In this document: positions 194 through 9,182 of the stretch, piece by piece
Layout: each line of letters starts with the position of its first letter
Numbering within the stretch: position 1 is the first letter of the stretch
From: Spartobacteria bacterium
GTDB taxonomy: Bacteria > Verrucomicrobiota > Verrucomicrobiia > Chthoniobacterales > UBA10450
Assembly: GCA_003445855.1 (NCBI GenBank)
Contig: DMCG01000026.1
Location: forward strand, 7,229 to 22,764
Length of the DNA: 15,536 bases
Direction of reading: 5' to 3'
Translations under genes and position numbers: made by a program
The notes under the pieces: model-generated
The model's input: only the letters and a program-made list of their open reading frames with translations
What the model was told of the DNA's origin: nothing
The model's database searches: none

Positions 194-610
194 CTAGGAG
201 ATTAACTCGCTCTCGATTACCTGCGGCGCATCGTGGAAAACATCGCCGTCGTTGTCAGATGTGTGGCCGCCGCGCAAAAGCAAATAAACGGTCGGCGTCG
301 CGATAAGCGACAGCAGTACGGAGATGCACAGCGCGCCAATCACAGCGATCGCGAGTGAATCGACGGTGGCGAGCAACGCTTTCACGACTCCACCAGCAGT
401 CTGACCTTCTTTCGAACCTGTACTTTGCACGCCAAGCGTGCGAGCCAGTTCTGGAGTTAAAAGCGTTGTGCCGGCGCCGGTATCAAGGATGAAGTCGAAC
501 GGTCCGCACTCGTTCACGTGCATCGGCACGAGCATGAGCGGCTGTGTGCCGCCGGCGAGCCGGAATTTCGTTCGAGGAACGGGAAAGACGCTGGCTGGCT
601 CACAAAACAT
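194..610 (-). pseudogene. Chimeric frame: retropepsin-like N-terminus joined to RND C-terminal helix
   Basis: This 138-codon frame has two unrelated parts. Residues about 17-85 look like a retropepsin-type aspartic protease: a strand LMLVPMHVNECGPFDF, then the catalytic motif LDTGAGTTLL with Asp43, then ELARTLGV and a flap-like TAGG. The rest of the protease fold, including the usual C-terminal hydrophobic-Gly element, is missing. From about residue 85 (near position 358) it switches to LAIAVIGALCISVLLSLIAT, which aligns with the last membrane helix of the intact RND pump (residues 982-1007), then ends in an acidic tail. The switch falls at a shared LAI, as expected for recombination at a short match. 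It lies 60 bases downstream of the intact RND gene on the same strand. It is probably a non-functional fusion; an expressed membrane-anchored protein is possible but unsupported. Confidence 0.65.
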
Positions 611-3741: not shown

Positions 3742-4811
3742 AATTTTTTTCCGGTCGTGACCGCCATGCCGTCGCTTAGCTCGTAATTTCCTTGCACGAC
3801 AACTTCATCCCCGGGCTTCAGATCGCTCGCGATGATTTCCGTTTCCTTGTCGGTCTGAAGTCCGGTCTGCACGGAATGCTCAACGGCGTGATCCTTCTGC
3901 ACGGTGAAGACCACTTTGCCATCGCTCTTGGGCAAAACCGCGGAACGCGGGACCACCATCGTTTCATGCGCGAGCGTTTTGATTTCCGCGCGAAGATACG
4001 CGTCGAGCATCAGATTCGCACCCGGAGGAACAGTCACATAAACATCTACCATCCGCGTTTCGGGATTCACGCGTTCGGTGATGAGACGGATTTTGCCCTC
4101 GACCGGTTTGGCTCCTTCAACGTTGACCGCGACAAGTGAGAGCGATTGATCCGGCTTCATGTAACGAACATCTTCCGGTTCCACGCCAAGTTTCACTTCG
4201 ATGTCATCACGCGCGATGAGTTCGACGAGCGGCCCTCCCGCCTGAACAATCTGACCGTCCTGCACATCCACTTTTCCGATGAGGCCGGCCATTTCCGAGG
4301 TGATGCGGCCCTCCGAGCTCACGCCCTGCTTCTGCAGACTTTGCAATTGCAACTGCGCGCTCTCGGCTGCTTTTTTCGCCAGTCCCAGCTCCTGATTGGT
4401 GGCGAGCTTGAGATTGAATCGCTGCTGCGTTTGATCGAGCTCCTTCTGCGCGGCTTCCGCCGCGCTCTTCGCTTCAGCGAGTTGCAACTGCGCAGCCGGA
4501 CTCGGATCGATTTCGACCAGTGGCTGACCGGCAGTGACTGTTTCGCCCGGCGCAACAAGGACATGGCGCACTCGCGTTTCAAATGTCGCGGCAACGGCGC
4601 GGGATTTTCCCGGTTGCGCAACCACGCTGCCGTAAGTGGTCACATTTTCCGCGATCATTTTTTTCTGAATCGGCGCGAGTGTGACATGCGCGACGGGACC
4701 TTTGCCCTCGCCTTCTTCTTTTCCTTCGCCTCCGTGATGTCCCAACCAATAACCGAGCGCGCCCACCGCGAGCAGGATCAGCAGACGGAAAATCCAGCGC
4801 CGCCACTTCAT
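3738..4811 (-). CDS. RND periplasmic adaptor (membrane fusion protein, HlyD/AcrA type)
   Basis: This 357-aa adaptor links the inner-membrane pump to the outer-membrane channel. A membrane anchor spans residues 7-23 after a basic MKWRR start. A Gly/Glu/Lys-rich linker (27-38) follows. The first lipoyl half is VLVAPGETVTAGQPLVEID (84-102), then comes an Ala/Gln/Glu-rich coiled-coil hairpin (about 105-165). The second lipoyl half is MAGLIGKVDVQDGQIVQAGG (174-193), and the barrel and membrane-proximal domains run to the C-terminus. The short hairpin suits a tip-to-tip contact with a TolC-like channel. It has no lipobox, so it is anchored by the N-terminal helix. It overlaps the upstream outer-membrane-factor stop and the downstream pump start by ATGA, implying translational coupling. 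No metal-binding His/Met clusters are obvious, apart from HHGG just after the anchor. Confidence 0.93.
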   Translation of the reverse strand: MKWRRWIFRLLILLAVGALGYWLGHHGGEGKEEGEGKGPVAHVTLAPIQKKMIAENVTTYGSVVAQPGKSRAVAATFETRVRHVLVAPGETVTAGQPLVEIDPSPAAQLQLAEAKSAAEAAQKELDQTQQRFNLKLATNQELGLAKKAAESAQLQLQSLQKQGVSSEGRITSEMAGLIGKVDVQDGQIVQAGGPLVELIARDDIEVKLGVEPEDVRYMKPDQSLSLVAVNVEGAKPVEGKIRLITERVNPETRMVDVYVTVPPGANLMLDAYLRAEIKTLAHETMVVPRSAVLPKSDGKVVFTVQKDHAVEHSVQTGLQTDKETEIIASDLKPGDEVVVQGNYELSDGMAVTTGKKL

Positions 4812-6208
4812 CGCGAGCCGCGCGTGTTTGGCGCTAGGAAGTAACGACCCGCAGCCAACTCGAGAGCGATTCGAGTTTCAATCAATTGCTGTTTCAGTTT
4901 CAAAATCTGGATCGTTTTTTGGTTCAAATTATTTTGCGCTGAATAGTAACTGAACGCATCGGTATTGCCTTGATTAATTGCGGTGCCATAAACATCGACG
5001 AGATGCTGCAAAATTGGCAGCGCGGTCTCCGCCGCTGCGATTTGTTCTTCTAGCGAACGAATATCAGTCAGCGCGGTCGCAACATCGGAACGCCCTTCGA
5101 ATACGCGATTGATATACTCGTCATAAAGTTTCTGTCGCGTGGCGCGCTCGAAGGCGATTGACCCCTGGCCACGATCGAAAATTGGCAGATCGACCGTCAC
5201 CGCTGGCCCGATCGTATGCACGTTCGATGTGTCGCTCGCGGGGTTGAAACCGATGCCGATCTTCGGGAACTGCGCGAGAATCGCCGCCCGCACTTTTTCT
5301 TCCTGGCTCTCGTAACCTTTTTTCAGCGCGCGCAAGTCAAGGCGACGCTCTTCGATCCCTTCCATCAATTGCGCCAACGATGGCGTCGAGACATGCGAAG
5401 GCAACGCGATGTTCTGATTTAGTCGGATCACGGTGTCCGCTGGAACGCCGAGCGCTTTTTTGAGCGCGAGTTTTTGATGCGCCAAGTCCTGTGCCAAAAC
5501 AAGAACGATGGCGTGCGCATCCTGCCGAGCTGATTCCGCCGTCGCGAGATCGAGCTCGGTTTTCGCATGCGCGCTCACGGCTTGCCGCATCGTTTCGAGA
5601 TTTTGCGAGAGCCGGGAATCAACGTCATTCGCGCGGGCGAGCTGCGCTTCATCGGACACCACACGATAAACCGCGAGCTTTGCCGCTTGCGCGATCTGCC
5701 ATTCCGTCCATGCGATATCGAGATCGATCGATTCGACGCCGGCGCGAGCCGCGGCTTTCTTCGCAGCTAATTGAATCAACGCCTGAATGTCCCAACTCAC
5801 TCCAACGCCGTAACCGGTGAGGAGACCGGGAACGATCGTGCCGCCGGTAACGAAGTCGAGAGAGCCAGTCACTTGAGGATTAGGCAGGATTCCCGCCTGG
5901 AAAAGTTCAGCCGTCGCGATCTGGCGCCGGTCGCGCGTCGCGCGCAACGACGGATTAATGAGTACGGCGATAACCGCCGCGCCATCGGGCGTCAGCCCGG
6001 CACGCGGATTCAATCTTATCGGTGCGAGAAGTGGATGCTTAATTTCGCTCGCCTGGACTTGCAGGGTGGTCCATTGCGGTTTCCGAAGCGCATTTGCTAC
6101 GGCATCGCCCGTGAGCGGGAGTGAATGGTAAAATGCGCACCCTGAAAATTCCGCGAGCAGCGCGAGCCACAATCCACAACGAACTGAAAGTCTCGTTAGT
6201 GCGACCAC
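4808..6208 (-). CDS. TolC-like outer-membrane efflux protein
   Basis: Outer-membrane factor of the tripartite pump, 466 aa from the GTG at 6208. I chose that start because it gives MVALTRLSVRCGLWLALLAE, a basic n-region and hydrophobic core ending at FSGC, a plausible though imperfect lipobox. The open frame continues upstream to an ATG at 6499, but that extension does not look like a signal peptide. The mature part shows two OEP repeats: first around DGAAVIAVLINPSLRATRDR and ILPNPQV, with long helical stretches rich in Ala, Gln and Glu (DLATAESARQDA), then around LRALKKGYESQEEKVRAAIL and FDRGQGSIAFERATRQ. The ending LAAGRYF is typical of the family. It is first in a minus-strand operon and overlaps the adaptor start by ATGA. 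No strong Shine-Dalgarno precedes the GTG, so the start is uncertain. Confidence 0.88.
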   Translation of the reverse strand: MVALTRLSVRCGLWLALLAEFSGCAFYHSLPLTGDAVANALRKPQWTTLQVQASEIKHPLLAPIRLNPRAGLTPDGAAVIAVLINPSLRATRDRRQIATAELFQAGILPNPQVTGSLDFVTGGTIVPGLLTGYGVGVSWDIQALIQLAAKKAAARAGVESIDLDIAWTEWQIAQAAKLAVYRVVSDEAQLARANDVDSRLSQNLETMRQAVSAHAKTELDLATAESARQDAHAIVLVLAQDLAHQKLALKKALGVPADTVIRLNQNIALPSHVSTPSLAQLMEGIEERRLDLRALKKGYESQEEKVRAAILAQFPKIGIGFNPASDTSNVHTIGPAVTVDLPIFDRGQGSIAFERATRQKLYDEYINRVFEGRSDVATALTDIRSLEEQIAAAETALPILQHLVDVYGTAINQGNTDAFSYYSAQNNLNQKTIQILKLKQQLIETRIALELAAGRYFLAPNTRGSR

Positions 6209-6520
6209 TCGAAATTGCTGTCGGCTAGAAATTGTTGCAGCACTGGAAAATGAATTTCGCCTTAATTCAACGCGTAACGCAAATCGTCGCCTTTGAAAAT
6301 CTACGTTGTCGGAAATCCACTTCAGCGGGAACGCGGCAAGCTGTTTAATGTGGTCCGTCCCGCGCGGAACGGGATCAACAAGAGCACTAACGTTTGGCTG
6401 ACCAGCGATCTCGTATTTCTTGGACATTGCCCGCCCGTCTCCACGATCGTTCGGGACAGAAACGAGCAAGAAATGGACTTGCGGGTTATCTTTGGCCATC
6501 TTCGTCCAATCAACTGCTCC
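6209..6520 (-). other. Open reading frame extension upstream of the outer-membrane factor, unrecognised
   Basis: The outer-membrane-factor frame stays open here back to a TAA at 6521-6523, with an ATG at 6499. The encoded ~100 residues include HFLLVSVPNDRGDGRAMSKK and LAAFPLKWISDN, which look protein-like but belong to no part of a TolC protein I recognise. It may be the C-terminal remnant of another gene fused in frame, consistent with the broken genes to the right. The opposite strand is also open (6293-6610) without recognisable content. Confidence 0.35.
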
Positions 6521-6992: not shown

Positions 6993-7320
6993 ATGAATCT
7001 GCCCAACAGTTGGATAAACCCGCGCGATGGCTCCGTTATGCGTTTGATCCCAGGTGGTGAATTCACCGATGGGCTCGACGCCGCAACAAATCGAAGGAGC
7101 TATCGCTATGGATAAAGACGGAGCGCAATTCGCGCTCGGACACGAAACACCGCAGACTCGCGTCTTCGTTCCGGATTTTTACCTCGGTATTTATGTTGTC
7201 ACGAATAGACAGTTCGCGCGTTTCCTTTCCGCAGCGCAGCCTCGGCAGGACCAACTAGAACTTTGGATCTCCTCTTTGGCACGGATCTCGCCGCGCGTGA
7301 GTTTCGAAAACGGCGGAGTC
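6993..7320 (+). pseudogene. Formylglycine-generating-enzyme/SUMF1-like gene, frameshifted and truncated
   Basis: From the ATG at 6993 the frame reads MNLPNSWINPRDGSVMRLIP followed by GGEFT. One extra base at about 7068 then moves the match into the next frame, MGSTPQQIEGAIAMDKDG, then GHETPQTRVFVPDFYLGIYV and VTNRQFARFL. Together these give the N-terminal signature of FGE-sulfatase (SUMF1) domains: GGEF-MGS, then ETP--V-V-DFY-G-Y-VTN-QFARFL. Similarity fades after LELWISSLARI, near 7300, where the catalytic C-terminal half should continue. The gene is therefore both frameshifted and truncated and should not be active. Family members activate sulfatases or hydroxylate other substrates; which applied here cannot be told. 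Confidence 0.7.
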
Positions 7321-7339
7321 GAAGACCCCGTAGCGCAGC

Positions 7340-7344
7340 GGAGG
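7340..7344 (+). promoter_or_regulatory. Shine-Dalgarno site for the XRE-type regulator
   Basis: GGAGG lies 8 bases before the ATG at 7353. It is one of the best ribosome-binding sites in the window. It decides the start over the longer open frame from 7263, whose extra N-terminal residues are only a shadow of the upstream pseudogene. Confidence 0.6.
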
Positions 7345-7352
7345 ACATTGCG

Positions 7353-7682
7353 ATGCGCTACAAAAACAATGTCGGTCCGCAAGTACGCCACCGCCGCTAC
7401 GCGCTCGGTTGGTCACAATCAGATTTTGCGACCAAACTCCAACTCGCCGGTTTCGATATCAGCCGCAGTGGCGTCTCCAAAATCGAAGCGCGCCTGTCTT
7501 ACGTTGACGACAAAACGCTTCTTTATCTCGCCGAAGTGCTGAAAGTACCCGTGCAGGAACTCTTCCCGCCGAGAACACCAAGCAACCGTCTCCACGATTT
7601 CATGGCAAAATTGGAGACAACGCGATTCCGACTATGCATTTTCCCATGTTACGGAACCGGCAAAGATGCGTCGCCATCTTGA
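7353..7682 (+). CDS. Small XRE-family helix-turn-helix regulator
   Basis: The 109-aa protein begins MRYKNNVGPQVRHRRYALGW and continues SQSDFATKLQLAGFDISRSG, VSKIEARLSYVDDKTLLYLA, EVLKVPVQELFP. This is a Cro/C1-type HTH fold: 'WSQSDFA' begins helix 2 and 'ISRSGVSKIEARLSYV' covers the recognition helix and after, ending with the usual 'L...LFP'. Stand-alone proteins of about 80-110 residues like this bind DNA as dimers; the target is unknown. The last ~30 residues (about 80-109) have no family resemblance, so the C-terminus may have been altered by rearrangement. It sits between a broken FGE gene and the riboswitch region on the same strand. Confidence is high for the fold, moderate that the gene is intact. 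Confidence 0.75.
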   Translation: MRYKNNVGPQVRHRRYALGWSQSDFATKLQLAGFDISRSGVSKIEARLSYVDDKTLLYLAEVLKVPVQELFPPRTPSNRLHDFMAKLETTRFRLCIFPCYGTGKDASPS

Positions 7683-7800
7683 CGGTCCCGATTTCAAATC
7701 CTTAACGCGAGATGCGCAAGGCAAACTTGCTTAAGCCAGTCCCACTCCGGCTCGGGCGGCCGCTAGCTCAATTTTGCTTTCTACTTTACAATTTCTGCTT
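7683..7800. other. Non-coding stretch after the XRE gene
   Basis: No gene was recognised. A weak inverted repeat GCAAG (7716-7720) / CTTGC (7726-7730) lies here without a following T-tract, and a GC-rich patch with a GCGGCCGC palindrome lies near 7758. The sequence becomes AT-rich from about 7770. Confidence 0.35.
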
Positions 7801-7819
7801 CAGTGAGCCTTGCTCACTG
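7801..7819. repeat. Perfect 8-bp inverted repeat, 3-nt loop
   Basis: CAGTGAGC (7801-7808) and GCTCACTG (7812-7819) are perfect complements around CTT. No T-tract follows on either strand, so this is not an obvious intrinsic terminator. It lies about 70 bases upstream of the riboswitch and could be an operator or a stable RNA stem. TTGGCCAA, a short palindrome, follows near 7826. Confidence 0.5.
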
Positions 7820-7839
7820 CCACAATTGGCCAAGATGGC

Positions 7840-7885
7840 TTGCTTAATTTTCTTTGCTGCGAAATTAAACTTTCGTTAATGTCTT
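7840..7885 (+). promoter_or_regulatory. AT-rich region likely holding the promoter for the riboswitch transcript
   Basis: This AT-rich stretch directly precedes the aptamer. Candidate boxes are poor matches: TTGCTT at 7840-7845, TAAACT at 7866-7871, GTTAAT at 7875-7880. A promoter is expected here because the aptamer must be transcribed from its 5' side. The exact boxes cannot be fixed by eye. Confidence 0.25.
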
Positions 7886-7888
7886 AAA

Positions 7889-7956
7889 GGGCAATGGAGT
7901 TTGCCTTCCCGCGAAGAGGGAAAACCGCCTGATCGTTTTCAGAGCTAATGACTCCT
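7889..7956 (+). promoter_or_regulatory. Fluoride (crcB-type) riboswitch aptamer
   Basis: The sequence follows the crcB-motif layout. P1 is GGCAA (7890-7894) / TTGCC (7901-7905), with the loop TGGAGT carrying GGAGT (7896-7900). An accessory hairpin TCCC (7907-7910) / GGGA (7918-7921) follows, then AAAACCGC (7921-7928), a short stem CTGA (7929-7932) / TCAG (7939-7942), and the signature GCTAATGACTCCT (7944-7956). ACTCC (7951-7955) can pair with the GGAGT loop to form the ligand-stabilised pseudoknot. Recalled fluoride aptamers share the AUGGAGU-like loop, AAAC and GCU-AUGA--CCU elements. It precedes an antiporter-like gene; sodium/proton antiporters are, with crcB and eriC-type channels, reported targets of this class. 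Identification is from motif memory, without a covariance-model search. Confidence 0.85.
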
Positions 7957-7988
7957 GTTAGCGCAGCGATGCGCTGCAGGAGTTTTTT
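7951..7988 (+). terminator. Intrinsic terminator, expression platform of the fluoride riboswitch
   Basis: ACTCCTGT (7951-7958) pairs with GCAGGAGT (7976-7983) and AGCGCA (7960-7965) with TGCGCT (7970-7975), closing a GCGA tetraloop, with one bulged T at 7959. Six T residues (7983-7988) follow, giving a strong rho-independent terminator. Its 5' arm is the same ACTCC used by the aptamer pseudoknot, so the two folds exclude each other. Ligand binding should block termination, making a genetic ON switch. The 3' arm contains AGGAG (7978-7982), 6 bases before the ATG at 7989, so the hairpin would also hide the ribosome-binding site. Confidence 0.85.
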
Positions 7989-8135
7989 ATGCTCAGTTTT
8001 TTCTCGATCGGTTTCGGTGGGGCGAACGGAATCTTTCAAAACATTTGGTTTGTCGCCGCGATATGGATGGGTTTGGCGCTGGTCGCGAGTCTCTTTTCCA
8101 TCTGGACCGGTATCTCTGTTGCGCTAATCGAAATC
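7989..8135 (+). pseudogene. 5' stub of a riboswitch-controlled CPA2-type cation/proton antiporter
   Basis: The ATG lies right after the terminator T-tract, with AGGAG 6 bases upstream. The first ~49 residues have an N-terminal segment FFSIGFGGANGIF, then WMGLALVASLFSIWTGISVA and LIEI. In CPA2/Kef-type antiporters the first helix typically ends in 'ALVASL-S-R-GISVALIEI-VG', so this is the start of such a carrier. After LIEI, near 8135, the family sequence stops. The frame runs on to a stop at 8325-8327 only as antisense of an outer-membrane-factor gene. About 90% of the antiporter is therefore missing. The frame could still yield a 112-aa product with one or two real helices, but not an antiporter. 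Confidence 0.7.
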
Positions 8136-8777
8136 CTGCTCCAACGCGAGCATTGTTTTTTCGTGCACGTTTACCGCTTCTCGCATCGCGTCCGCACTTT
8201 CCTGCAATCCGCGGTTTGCTTCACGTGCGCGGGTGACCTGTTCGCCCAACGCGACGACGCGGTAAACGGCTGCGCGCGCATTCTCCGCTACTTGCCATTC
8301 CTGCCACGCGATATCCAGATCCACTGAGCGCACATTTTTCCGCGCTGCTGTTTGCTTCGGCAAAAAAGGAATGAGCGCGCTAAACTCCCAACCGGCGCTG
8401 AAAGAATACGCATCGACGGTTCCTACGGTATTTCCACCAGTGACATAGTCGCGTGCGTATGCGACCACTGGATTGGGCAAGATGCCGGCCTGGATCAACT
8501 GCGCCACCGCCAGCCCACGCCGATCTCGAATAGCGCGCAACGCCGGATTCGAGTACAACGCGATCGTGGCGGCTTCATCCGGGCCGATCCCCTTGCGAGG
8601 GTCAAATGAGAGCGGGCCGAGCGGACGACGTTCGAATCGCGTTGTAGGAATCCTCACCGGCGCCTCGCGGGCAGCGCCCGGTCGCATTTCCGACTGAGCC
8701 CGCACGGCCGCGATCGCCACGGCGAAGGTAAGCAGACAACCAAAGAAGATCTGGAATCGAGTCGGCACGAATCGCAT
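8124..8777 (-). pseudogene. Second TolC-like outer-membrane efflux protein, truncated to its N-terminal half
   Basis: The ATG at 8777 gives MRFVPTRFQIFFGCLLTFAV ending in AVRAQ, a clear signal peptide with an ARA-like cleavage site. I prefer it to the longer frame from 8918, which reads antisense through another gene fragment. The mature part parallels the outer-membrane factor at 4808-6208: NPALRAIRDRRGLAVAQL, QAGILPNP, SVDLDIAWQEWQVAENARAA and VYRVV. It stops after TMLALEQ followed by DFD and a TAG at 8124-8126. The last three codons are antisense of the antiporter stub, so real homology ends at about 8136. About 217 residues remain from the start, against 466 in the intact paralogue. Without the second repeat it should not form a trimeric channel. 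Confidence 0.8.
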
Positions 8778-8846
8778 GGCCGATGACGAGTATCGCTGGA
8801 AAACTCCCGGACGCGACCTCGCGTTAGTTAATCTCCGTTCTATCCG

Positions 8847-9182
8847 TTGAACCACGGGGACGACGTCCAAATCGCGCGTCGCGTGGGGCCGGTCGAATTG
8901 GATTTCGAGTCCGGGCATAATTTTTTCGAAGGTTCGACCGACGAATGGATTTACGGCTTCGTCGCCGGCTGGCCAATCTCCGATAAGCTGGAACTGCTCG
9001 CGGAGTTGTTCGGGGTCGCGTCACGAAGCTTCGATACAGATGAACTTGCCCTGAACTTCGGAGCGCGGCAAAAGCTCACGAGGAATGCGACTCTGCTCAT
9101 GGCGATTGGCCGCGATCTGCAAAGCGCGCCTGGCGAGCAGCTGCAACTAATCGGCTACTTCGGAGTTCAGCTGAGCTTCTGA
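8847..9182 (+). pseudogene. C-terminal fragment of an outer-membrane beta-barrel (transporter-like) protein
   Basis: The frame encodes about 110 residues with alternating beta-strand character: FELDFESG-like VELDFESGHNFF, EWIYGFVAGWPISDKLELLA, LNFGARQKLTRNATLLMAIG, and an ending LIGYFGVQLSF. The terminal Phe after alternating hydrophobic residues is the usual last-strand signal of outer-membrane barrels. It resembles the C-terminus of MetA-pathway/transporter-type outer-membrane proteins. There is no signal peptide, and the N-terminal strands are missing. Homology fades near 8860, where the 5' leader of the opposite outer-membrane-factor fragment begins. It converges on another barrel gene ending at 9237. 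Confidence 0.65.

Follow-up and report, generated by a model that had tools for sequence, protein, structure and literature searches.

The locus described here raises the question of whether one short RNA strand can serve a ligand-sensing aptamer, a transcription terminator and a ribosome-binding site together. It lies in the window, by which we mean the whole 15,536-nt stretch of DNA analysed, taken from the genome of a Spartobacteria bacterium (G000). An earlier note on this DNA had read the region as a fluoride riboswitch in which ACTCC can pair either with the aptamer loop GGAGT or with the terminator arm AGGAGT, so that termination and the start of translation could both come under one switch. 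The features found are listed in Table 1.

The assignment to the fluoride class was borne out by a search of the window against Rfam (cmscan), in which RF01734 was matched over its full model (positions 1-64) above the cut-off of 34 bits with an E-value of 4.6e-9, and no other family reaches its cut-off anywhere in the window. As a check the earlier note had proposed a covariance search of positions 7850-8000. There fluoride is the clear top score, and the runner-up at E <=10 is a microRNA family with 15.3 bits against a cut-off of 78. A Li+ or Na+ (nhaA-type) riboswitch would suit the type of gene downstream, which is Na+/H+ exchanger-like and in a congener encodes a full protein of family PF00999, and this is the single point in its favour. 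We consider that reading practically negligible, as the RF01734 match spans the whole model with 42.6 bits, the 4 matches listed for 7850-8000 at E <=10 include no lithium or nhaA model, and the same switch precedes CrcB in all 26 CrcB-bearing riboswitch genomes of the family; another ion class was rejected on the outcome of that search, where fluoride is far ahead. As judged from its sequence the window RNA is a fluoride riboswitch, and its binding of fluoride is predicted from the model match. A second fluoride riboswitch (39.2 bits) was found in the same genome on contig C256.

Table 1. Coordinates of the features at the riboswitch locus and of the reading frames that follow it (positions are those of the window).
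Feature	Position	Strand	Basis
Fluoride riboswitch aptamer (RF01734)	7881..7964	+	full-length model match, cmscan 42.6 bits
P1, first stem-loop, with the 5' pseudoknot strand GGAGT (7896-7900) in its loop	7890..7905	+	CM alignment, fold
Extra insert hairpin UUCCC...GGGAA, between P1 and the AACCGC element	7906..7922	+	fold
P2, second stem-loop, as folded	7927..7945	+	CM alignment, fold
ACUCC: 3' pseudoknot strand, 5' arm of predicted terminator and anti-Shine-Dalgarno	7951..7955	+	sequence, CM alignment, fold
Predicted terminator and Shine-Dalgarno-sequestering hairpin, GCGA loop; the fold adds G7950-U7984	7951..7983	+	fold, covariation of outer stem
Shine-Dalgarno AGGAG within the 3' arm of the terminator	7978..7982	+	sequence, predicted unpaired probability
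T-tract T6, start codon directly after	7983..7988	+	sequence
First 14 codons, derived from a crcB start (MLSFFSIGFGGANG)	7989..8030	+	compared with crcB starts of G012, G020 and G021
N-terminal piece of a PF00999 / CPA2-like cation:proton exchanger, ending at about codon 50 of the ORF	8031..8137	+	nucleotide identity to C256
Junction of exchanger fragment and tolC-like fragment	8137..8141	.	genome comparison
tolC-like outer-membrane efflux ORF, N-terminal half, its end overlapping the riboswitch ORF	8124..8918	-	amino acid identity to relatives

Folded alone, positions 7889-7991 yield P1, the insert hairpin, P2 and a long 3' hairpin with -44.1 kcal/mol, compared with -29.2 +/- 3.5 kcal/mol for shuffled sequences (z -4.3; 0 of 200 shuffles as stable). 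Once the 3' hairpin is left off, the remaining aptamer part has ordinary stability (z -0.9; 38 of 200 shuffles as stable). Complementarity of the two pseudoknot strands was found in the window both in the sequence and in the covariance model alignment, and an exact 5' complement is present in 21 of the 22 family loci scored, the one in which it is missing being L025; two more family loci were unscored.

The extra hairpin between P1 and the next element, which had been pointed out as a departure from the minimal aptamer, is indeed present and is modest, as positions 7905-7925 fold at -6.7 kcal/mol with 10 of 200 shuffles as stable. An insert hairpin with at least 4 pairs was observed in 22 of 24 family loci (the other two were unparsed by the script) and in 21 of the 61 above-cut-off loci elsewhere in the phylum (two unparsed). 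It is ordinary for the window's family and not rare in the rest of the phylum, nor is a hairpin unusual among crcB RNAs, 31% of which are described as carrying one (PMC3023696), possibly another hairpin than this; on that ground the insert was rejected as a novelty.

The expression platform follows within a few nucleotides. The arm AGGAGT occupies 7978-7983, six nucleotides separate AGGAG from the ATG at 7989, and the start codon stands directly after the T-tract, all as had been read by eye. The distance from the hairpin to the ATG is 5 nt, inside the 10 nt expected of a dual platform, and AGGAG is paired in the 3' arm. For the 3' hairpin (7945-7995) the folding energy is -24.2 kcal/mol (z -4.8; none of 200 shuffles is as stable), and T6 comes next, as in an intrinsic terminator. 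A simple terminator scan found only the upper stem, with 3 sites in the region against 1.3 +/- 1.2 in shuffles; it gave little because the stem holds an internal loop. No sigma-70-like promoter was found in the scanned region 7650-8200.

The alternative pairing of ACTCC proposed at the outset stands on three counts: the coordinates are right, folding predicts both partners, and the stem covaries. ACUCC is required by the pseudoknot and by the 3' hairpin alike. In folding calculations for the window, the predicted unpaired probability of the Shine-Dalgarno sequence (SD) is 0.000 without constraint and 0.381 with the pseudoknot strands withheld. The same calculation was made for 24 family loci, of which 22 have a scorable SD and 21 of these also have the exact 5' pseudoknot strand, and for 20 of these 21 the ON state gave the higher unpaired probability of the SD. 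The predicted release of the SD is small in some loci, namely L018 (0.029, from 0.001), L008 (0.189) and L021 (0.243). The exception is L010, where the release is reversed, probably as the wrong SD was picked by the script.

We put the probability that this RNA is a fluoride riboswitch which works as an ON switch through a dual expression platform at about 0.8. Without fluoride, ACUCC would pair with the AGGAGU arm, and the hairpin together with the U-tract would terminate transcription just before the AUG, while any transcripts that read through would still keep the SD buried. With Mg-bound fluoride, ACUCC would stay paired with GGAGU in the aptamer's pseudoknot, the hairpin would lose its lower half, the polymerase would read on and the SD would be freed for translation. 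The upper hairpin could still form with ACUCC held in the aptamer and would then no longer abut the T-tract, so that termination is predicted to cease.

Part of this layout is to be expected. The conserved ACUCC of the aptamer is by its sequence an anti-Shine-Dalgarno in its own right, complementary to any SD, and since it is fixed, some pairing with an SD comes almost free. Regulation in the cell may act at a single level, with the hairpin as a plain terminator or a plain sequesterer of the SD, and the overlap may be a by-product of this complementarity, any nearby GGAG being able to pair with a fixed aptamer strand. Fluoride riboswitches of a single type have been published for each sort (PMC3023696, PMC13273304), and within the family 16 of 55 loci are classed as sequestering the SD without a U-tract. 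In addition, the four congeneric platforms carry TTTTATT in place of T6, which makes them poorer terminators. The non-trivial part of the layout is the U-tract wedged between SD and ATG, and it is here that a one-level account fares less well, since SD pairing needs no U-tract and this tract nevertheless recurs in 29 of the 55 family switches. At least five T between SD and start were found in just 2 of 70 SD-led genes that do not stand behind a fluoride switch, compared with 5 of 8 that do. This comparison draws on 78 distinct SD-led ORFs from the window and 23 other loci (24 sources, almost all within the family); the 70 are counted without three further riboswitch-led genes, the proportion being 2 of 73 with them.

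Neither does SD pairing by itself need a stem beyond ACUCC, and the stem pairs outside ACTCC covary across relatives. Pairs 5-7 are standard in 97 of 117 cells over 39 distinct platforms, against 58-65 of 115-117 when the arms are slid and, over 2000 permutations, 78.1 on average and 88 at most; the cells are non-independent as the genomes are related. These platforms come from 46 of the 55 family loci, nine without a usable start or class being excluded. A smaller set of 18 platforms, one from another family, gave 64 of 72 against 24-34 of 72 when slid, with a register picked on pairs 0-6 and hence biased towards structure. In the 11 closest platforms no covariation is visible, the stem being too conserved, and for that reason the wider sets were used. 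Taken with the spacer counts, this leads us to regard regulation at one level only as rather unlikely and to prefer the dual platform.

The dual layout was found in 29 of the 55 fluoride riboswitch loci of the window's Chthoniobacterales family, whereas elsewhere in the phylum it was assigned to only 2 of 61 above-cut-off loci (8 of the 61 without a start found). The family set comprises 83 genomes, 51 of which have a match at E 0.001, and the phylum survey took in all 83 matches at or above the cut-off and five weaker ones. Apart from the 16 SD-only loci, which fall below the U-tract threshold, the family includes two terminator-like platforms with a weak SD, five of other kinds and three unassigned; in the last three the first ORF is a crcB remnant, and by eye they too seem dual. 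The thresholds for these classes were set by the analyst, and related loci do not represent independent events. An earlier classification by script gave the dual form in 15 of 24 family loci, two of the 24 being below the cut-off. The dual layout is a lineage trait, typical of one bacterial family, and both it and the SD-only form occur before either crcB or the exchanger. With 16 of the 55 loci SD-only, translation may be the ancestral or main level of control in the family. Further fluoride riboswitches in G007, G469 and G474 (L023, L164 and L176) precede ORFs that encode neither CrcB nor the exchanger; in L023 (1608-2261) the ORF starts with GTG and matches DUF6062.

Work by Rodionov from 2002 is reportedly cited for platforms that attenuate both transcription and translation. 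That a ribosome-binding site may lie in the 3' arm of a terminator is established as a class in other riboswitches (Barrick and Breaker 2007, PMC2258182). The window resembles these dual platforms in having the ribosome-binding site on the 3' side of a terminator beside the ORF, no more than 10 nt from the start codon, and differs from the metabolite riboswitches described there in its fluoride class, its predicted ON logic and an SD that pairs with the aptamer's own pseudoknot strand. For the fluoride class, it was noted at discovery that terminators often overlap the crcB motif (PMC2864571). The translational crcB RNA of Acidothermus cellulolyticus and the terminator-bearing one of Roseburia intestinalis were drawn separately (PMC3023696) and represent one half of the mechanism each, whereas in the window both halves are predicted to be the same hairpin. 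Sharing of the pseudoknot strand with the expression platform is also described for the transcriptional switch of B. cereus (PMC11077080). An assay of 1901 fluoride riboswitches from 2026 sorted them as transcriptional or translational, and its main text does without the words Shine, RBS or ribosome binding (PMC13273304). The majority of its terminating variants have start codons 28 nt past the termination site, unlike the window with its SD in the terminator arm and its start codon directly after the U-tract. In the open-access literature searched, no dual-platform fluoride riboswitch and no takeover from crcB by an exchanger was found. Since dual platforms are known in other riboswitch classes, and given the share of crcB RNAs with a hairpin, neither of these two traits is new in kind. 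A fluoride riboswitch with a dual platform appears to be the best-supported mechanism for the window RNA.

The earlier note was silent on two points, namely that the window's own gene is broken and that crcB has undergone deletion and fusion in the genus. At the level of the family, the riboswitch lies in the 5' UTR of a fluoride-defence gene; in the window this gene is truncated. Nucleotide identity to C256 is 83% over 7888-8137, after which the match stops, and from about 8141 the N-terminal half of a tolC-like gene follows on the opposite strand. The tolC-like fragment shows 71% amino acid identity to its counterpart in G001, 75% to that in G002 and 55-71% to those of four other relatives. 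No Pfam match was obtained for this fragment itself, and the 51-residue exchanger piece of the window reaches no Pfam family either. The full-length exchanger of G003 matches PF00999 with 135 bits (cut-off 26.2) and the CPA2 model with 92.5 bits, below its cut-off of 238.3. The copy on C256 has the same layout of hairpin and SD, the T-tract TTTTATT and an exchanger ORF of 355 codons that runs to the contig end. Its upstream region is common with G001-G003, and the window copy shares only about 250 bp with them. Over 33 comparable exchanger codons, the window and C256 differ at 13 synonymous and 3 non-synonymous sites, hence the window piece has probably been under selection for most of its history. 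Being an extra, non-syntenic duplicate whose exchanger is cut after about 50 codons, the window riboswitch is probably a relic before a gene that is truncated in the assembly, and the working copy of G000 is probably the one on C256.

The junction was absent from the other 57 genomes searched, with up to 10 candidate places scored per genome, and the idea that a riboswitch joined to half of a tolC gene is a normal arrangement of the lineage was rejected on this count. The same absence would be expected if the junction at 8137-8141 were an assembly error and the riboswitch led an intact exchanger in the organism; the genome (2.1 Mb) is fragmented into 260 contigs and 73% complete, and in G001 and G002 the counterparts of the two halves sit on different contigs. 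The surroundings of the junction speak for a different origin. In G001 the gene row is RND-MFP-tolC-EamA-ChrB-MFS, and on the window contig pieces of its RND-MFP-tolC operon flank an 8-kb stretch that contains a diverged RND-MFP-tolC set, gene debris and the riboswitch. Both flanks match this one operon in the order of G001, unlike a random join, and the rest of the resident operon is found nowhere else in the G000 assembly, which speaks for a real insertion or replacement. Moreover, the sole other exchanger pieces of the assembly, on C256 (residues 1-355) and at the C-terminal end on C113 (386-435), fit together as one other gene. An assembly error is accordingly possible, if the less probable of the two, and a relic in the genome is the reading we keep.

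Several other features of the window touch on this stretch. It holds two tolC-like genes, the fragment in Table 1, cut where the exchanger fragment ends, and a second at 4808-6499 on the reverse strand. At 194-610 (reverse strand) an aspartyl-protease-like start, recognised by eye, runs in frame into the C-terminal end of an RND pump, giving the 8-kb stretch another abrupt junction at its left border. The overlapping fragments at 7054-7682 (forward strand), immediately before the riboswitch, resemble a piece of a formylglycine-generating enzyme (by eye) and a helix-turn-helix gene (Pfam) and represent gene debris.

The second point concerns the gene that the switch leads. Wherever a riboswitch genome of the family has CrcB, crcB comes first behind the switch, and in G012, G015, G020, G021 and G446 it is followed by DUF190 and the exchanger within the 1.3 kb examined (CrcB and DUF190 of G021 were identified by Pfam). 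In the window's genus every copy, two in G000 and one each in G001-G003, opens with about 14 codons similar to a crcB start (the window has MLSFFSIGFGGANG, G012 has MLSYIWVGLGGAIG), and the same reading frame continues into exchanger sequence at FQNIW. In this genus crcB, DUF190 and the exchanger's own start have been deleted, leaving an in-frame fusion of crcB and exchanger. In three further genomes (G452, G464 and G481) a decayed crcB remnant is found between switch and exchanger, an apparent intermediate stage of the loss. These remnants were located in L134 (560-790; the same DNA as L168), L146 (506-736; the same DNA as L161) and L155.

By a hand tally, the 51 riboswitch genomes of the family divide into 26 with CrcB and 25 without, the latter all being multi-contig assemblies. 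In 24 of these 25 no other recognised gene stands between switch and exchanger; in G469 a 218-codon ORF takes the exchanger's place. CLC exceeds its cut-off in 3 of the 25 and has a weak match below it in two more, which leaves 22 genomes that lack both CrcB and an above-cut-off CLC, including five of the six with a completeness of 90% or more. Conversely, out of 24 named loci found by way of the exchanger, 23 have RF01734 on the same strand, upstream in 22, at a distance of no more than 1.8 kb. About 16 of these loci are from the same genomes as the family set and the rest include Acidobacteria, Latescibacterota and Ignavibacteriales. Na+/H+ antiporters are reported as the next most common genes of fluoride riboswitches after exporters, which was read as pH homeostasis (PMC11139923). 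What differs here is that, in the absence of crcB, the exchanger has moved up to first position behind the switch, in one genus through in-frame fusion with crcB.

With crcB fused in frame in genus g1, decayed in the three genomes or gone, it is conceivable that in g1 and part of g5 the main defence against fluoride has passed from CrcB to the exchanger and that the latter transports the ion, for instance by F-/H+ or F-/cation exchange. We judge this quite unlikely at present. A comparison of the exchanger with solved structures gave no match. The motif FITD, once FIND, occurs in 22 of the 24 exchanger translations (L125-L146), the remaining two having been translated in a wrong frame; DD, ND or QD is found at this position in related exchangers.

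The strand ACUCC would make this RNA a compact natural case in which five nucleotides act as ligand-sensing pseudoknot, terminator arm and anti-Shine-Dalgarno, and with one strand in three roles the control of termination and that of translation should be separable by small mutations. The family, which has dual and SD-only versions with the same aptamer and the same genes, offers a natural series on the keeping of one or both levels. A more open question than the window copy itself is posed by the relatives, which hold a fluoride regulon without a known exporter. The genus mates may live in soil, as their sample names are read, and the loss of crcB under a retained fluoride switch raises the question of what protects these bacteria from fluoride. 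If the exchanger does so by moving the ion, bacteria would have, next to CrcB/Fluc and CLC-F, a fluoride exporter of a third kind.
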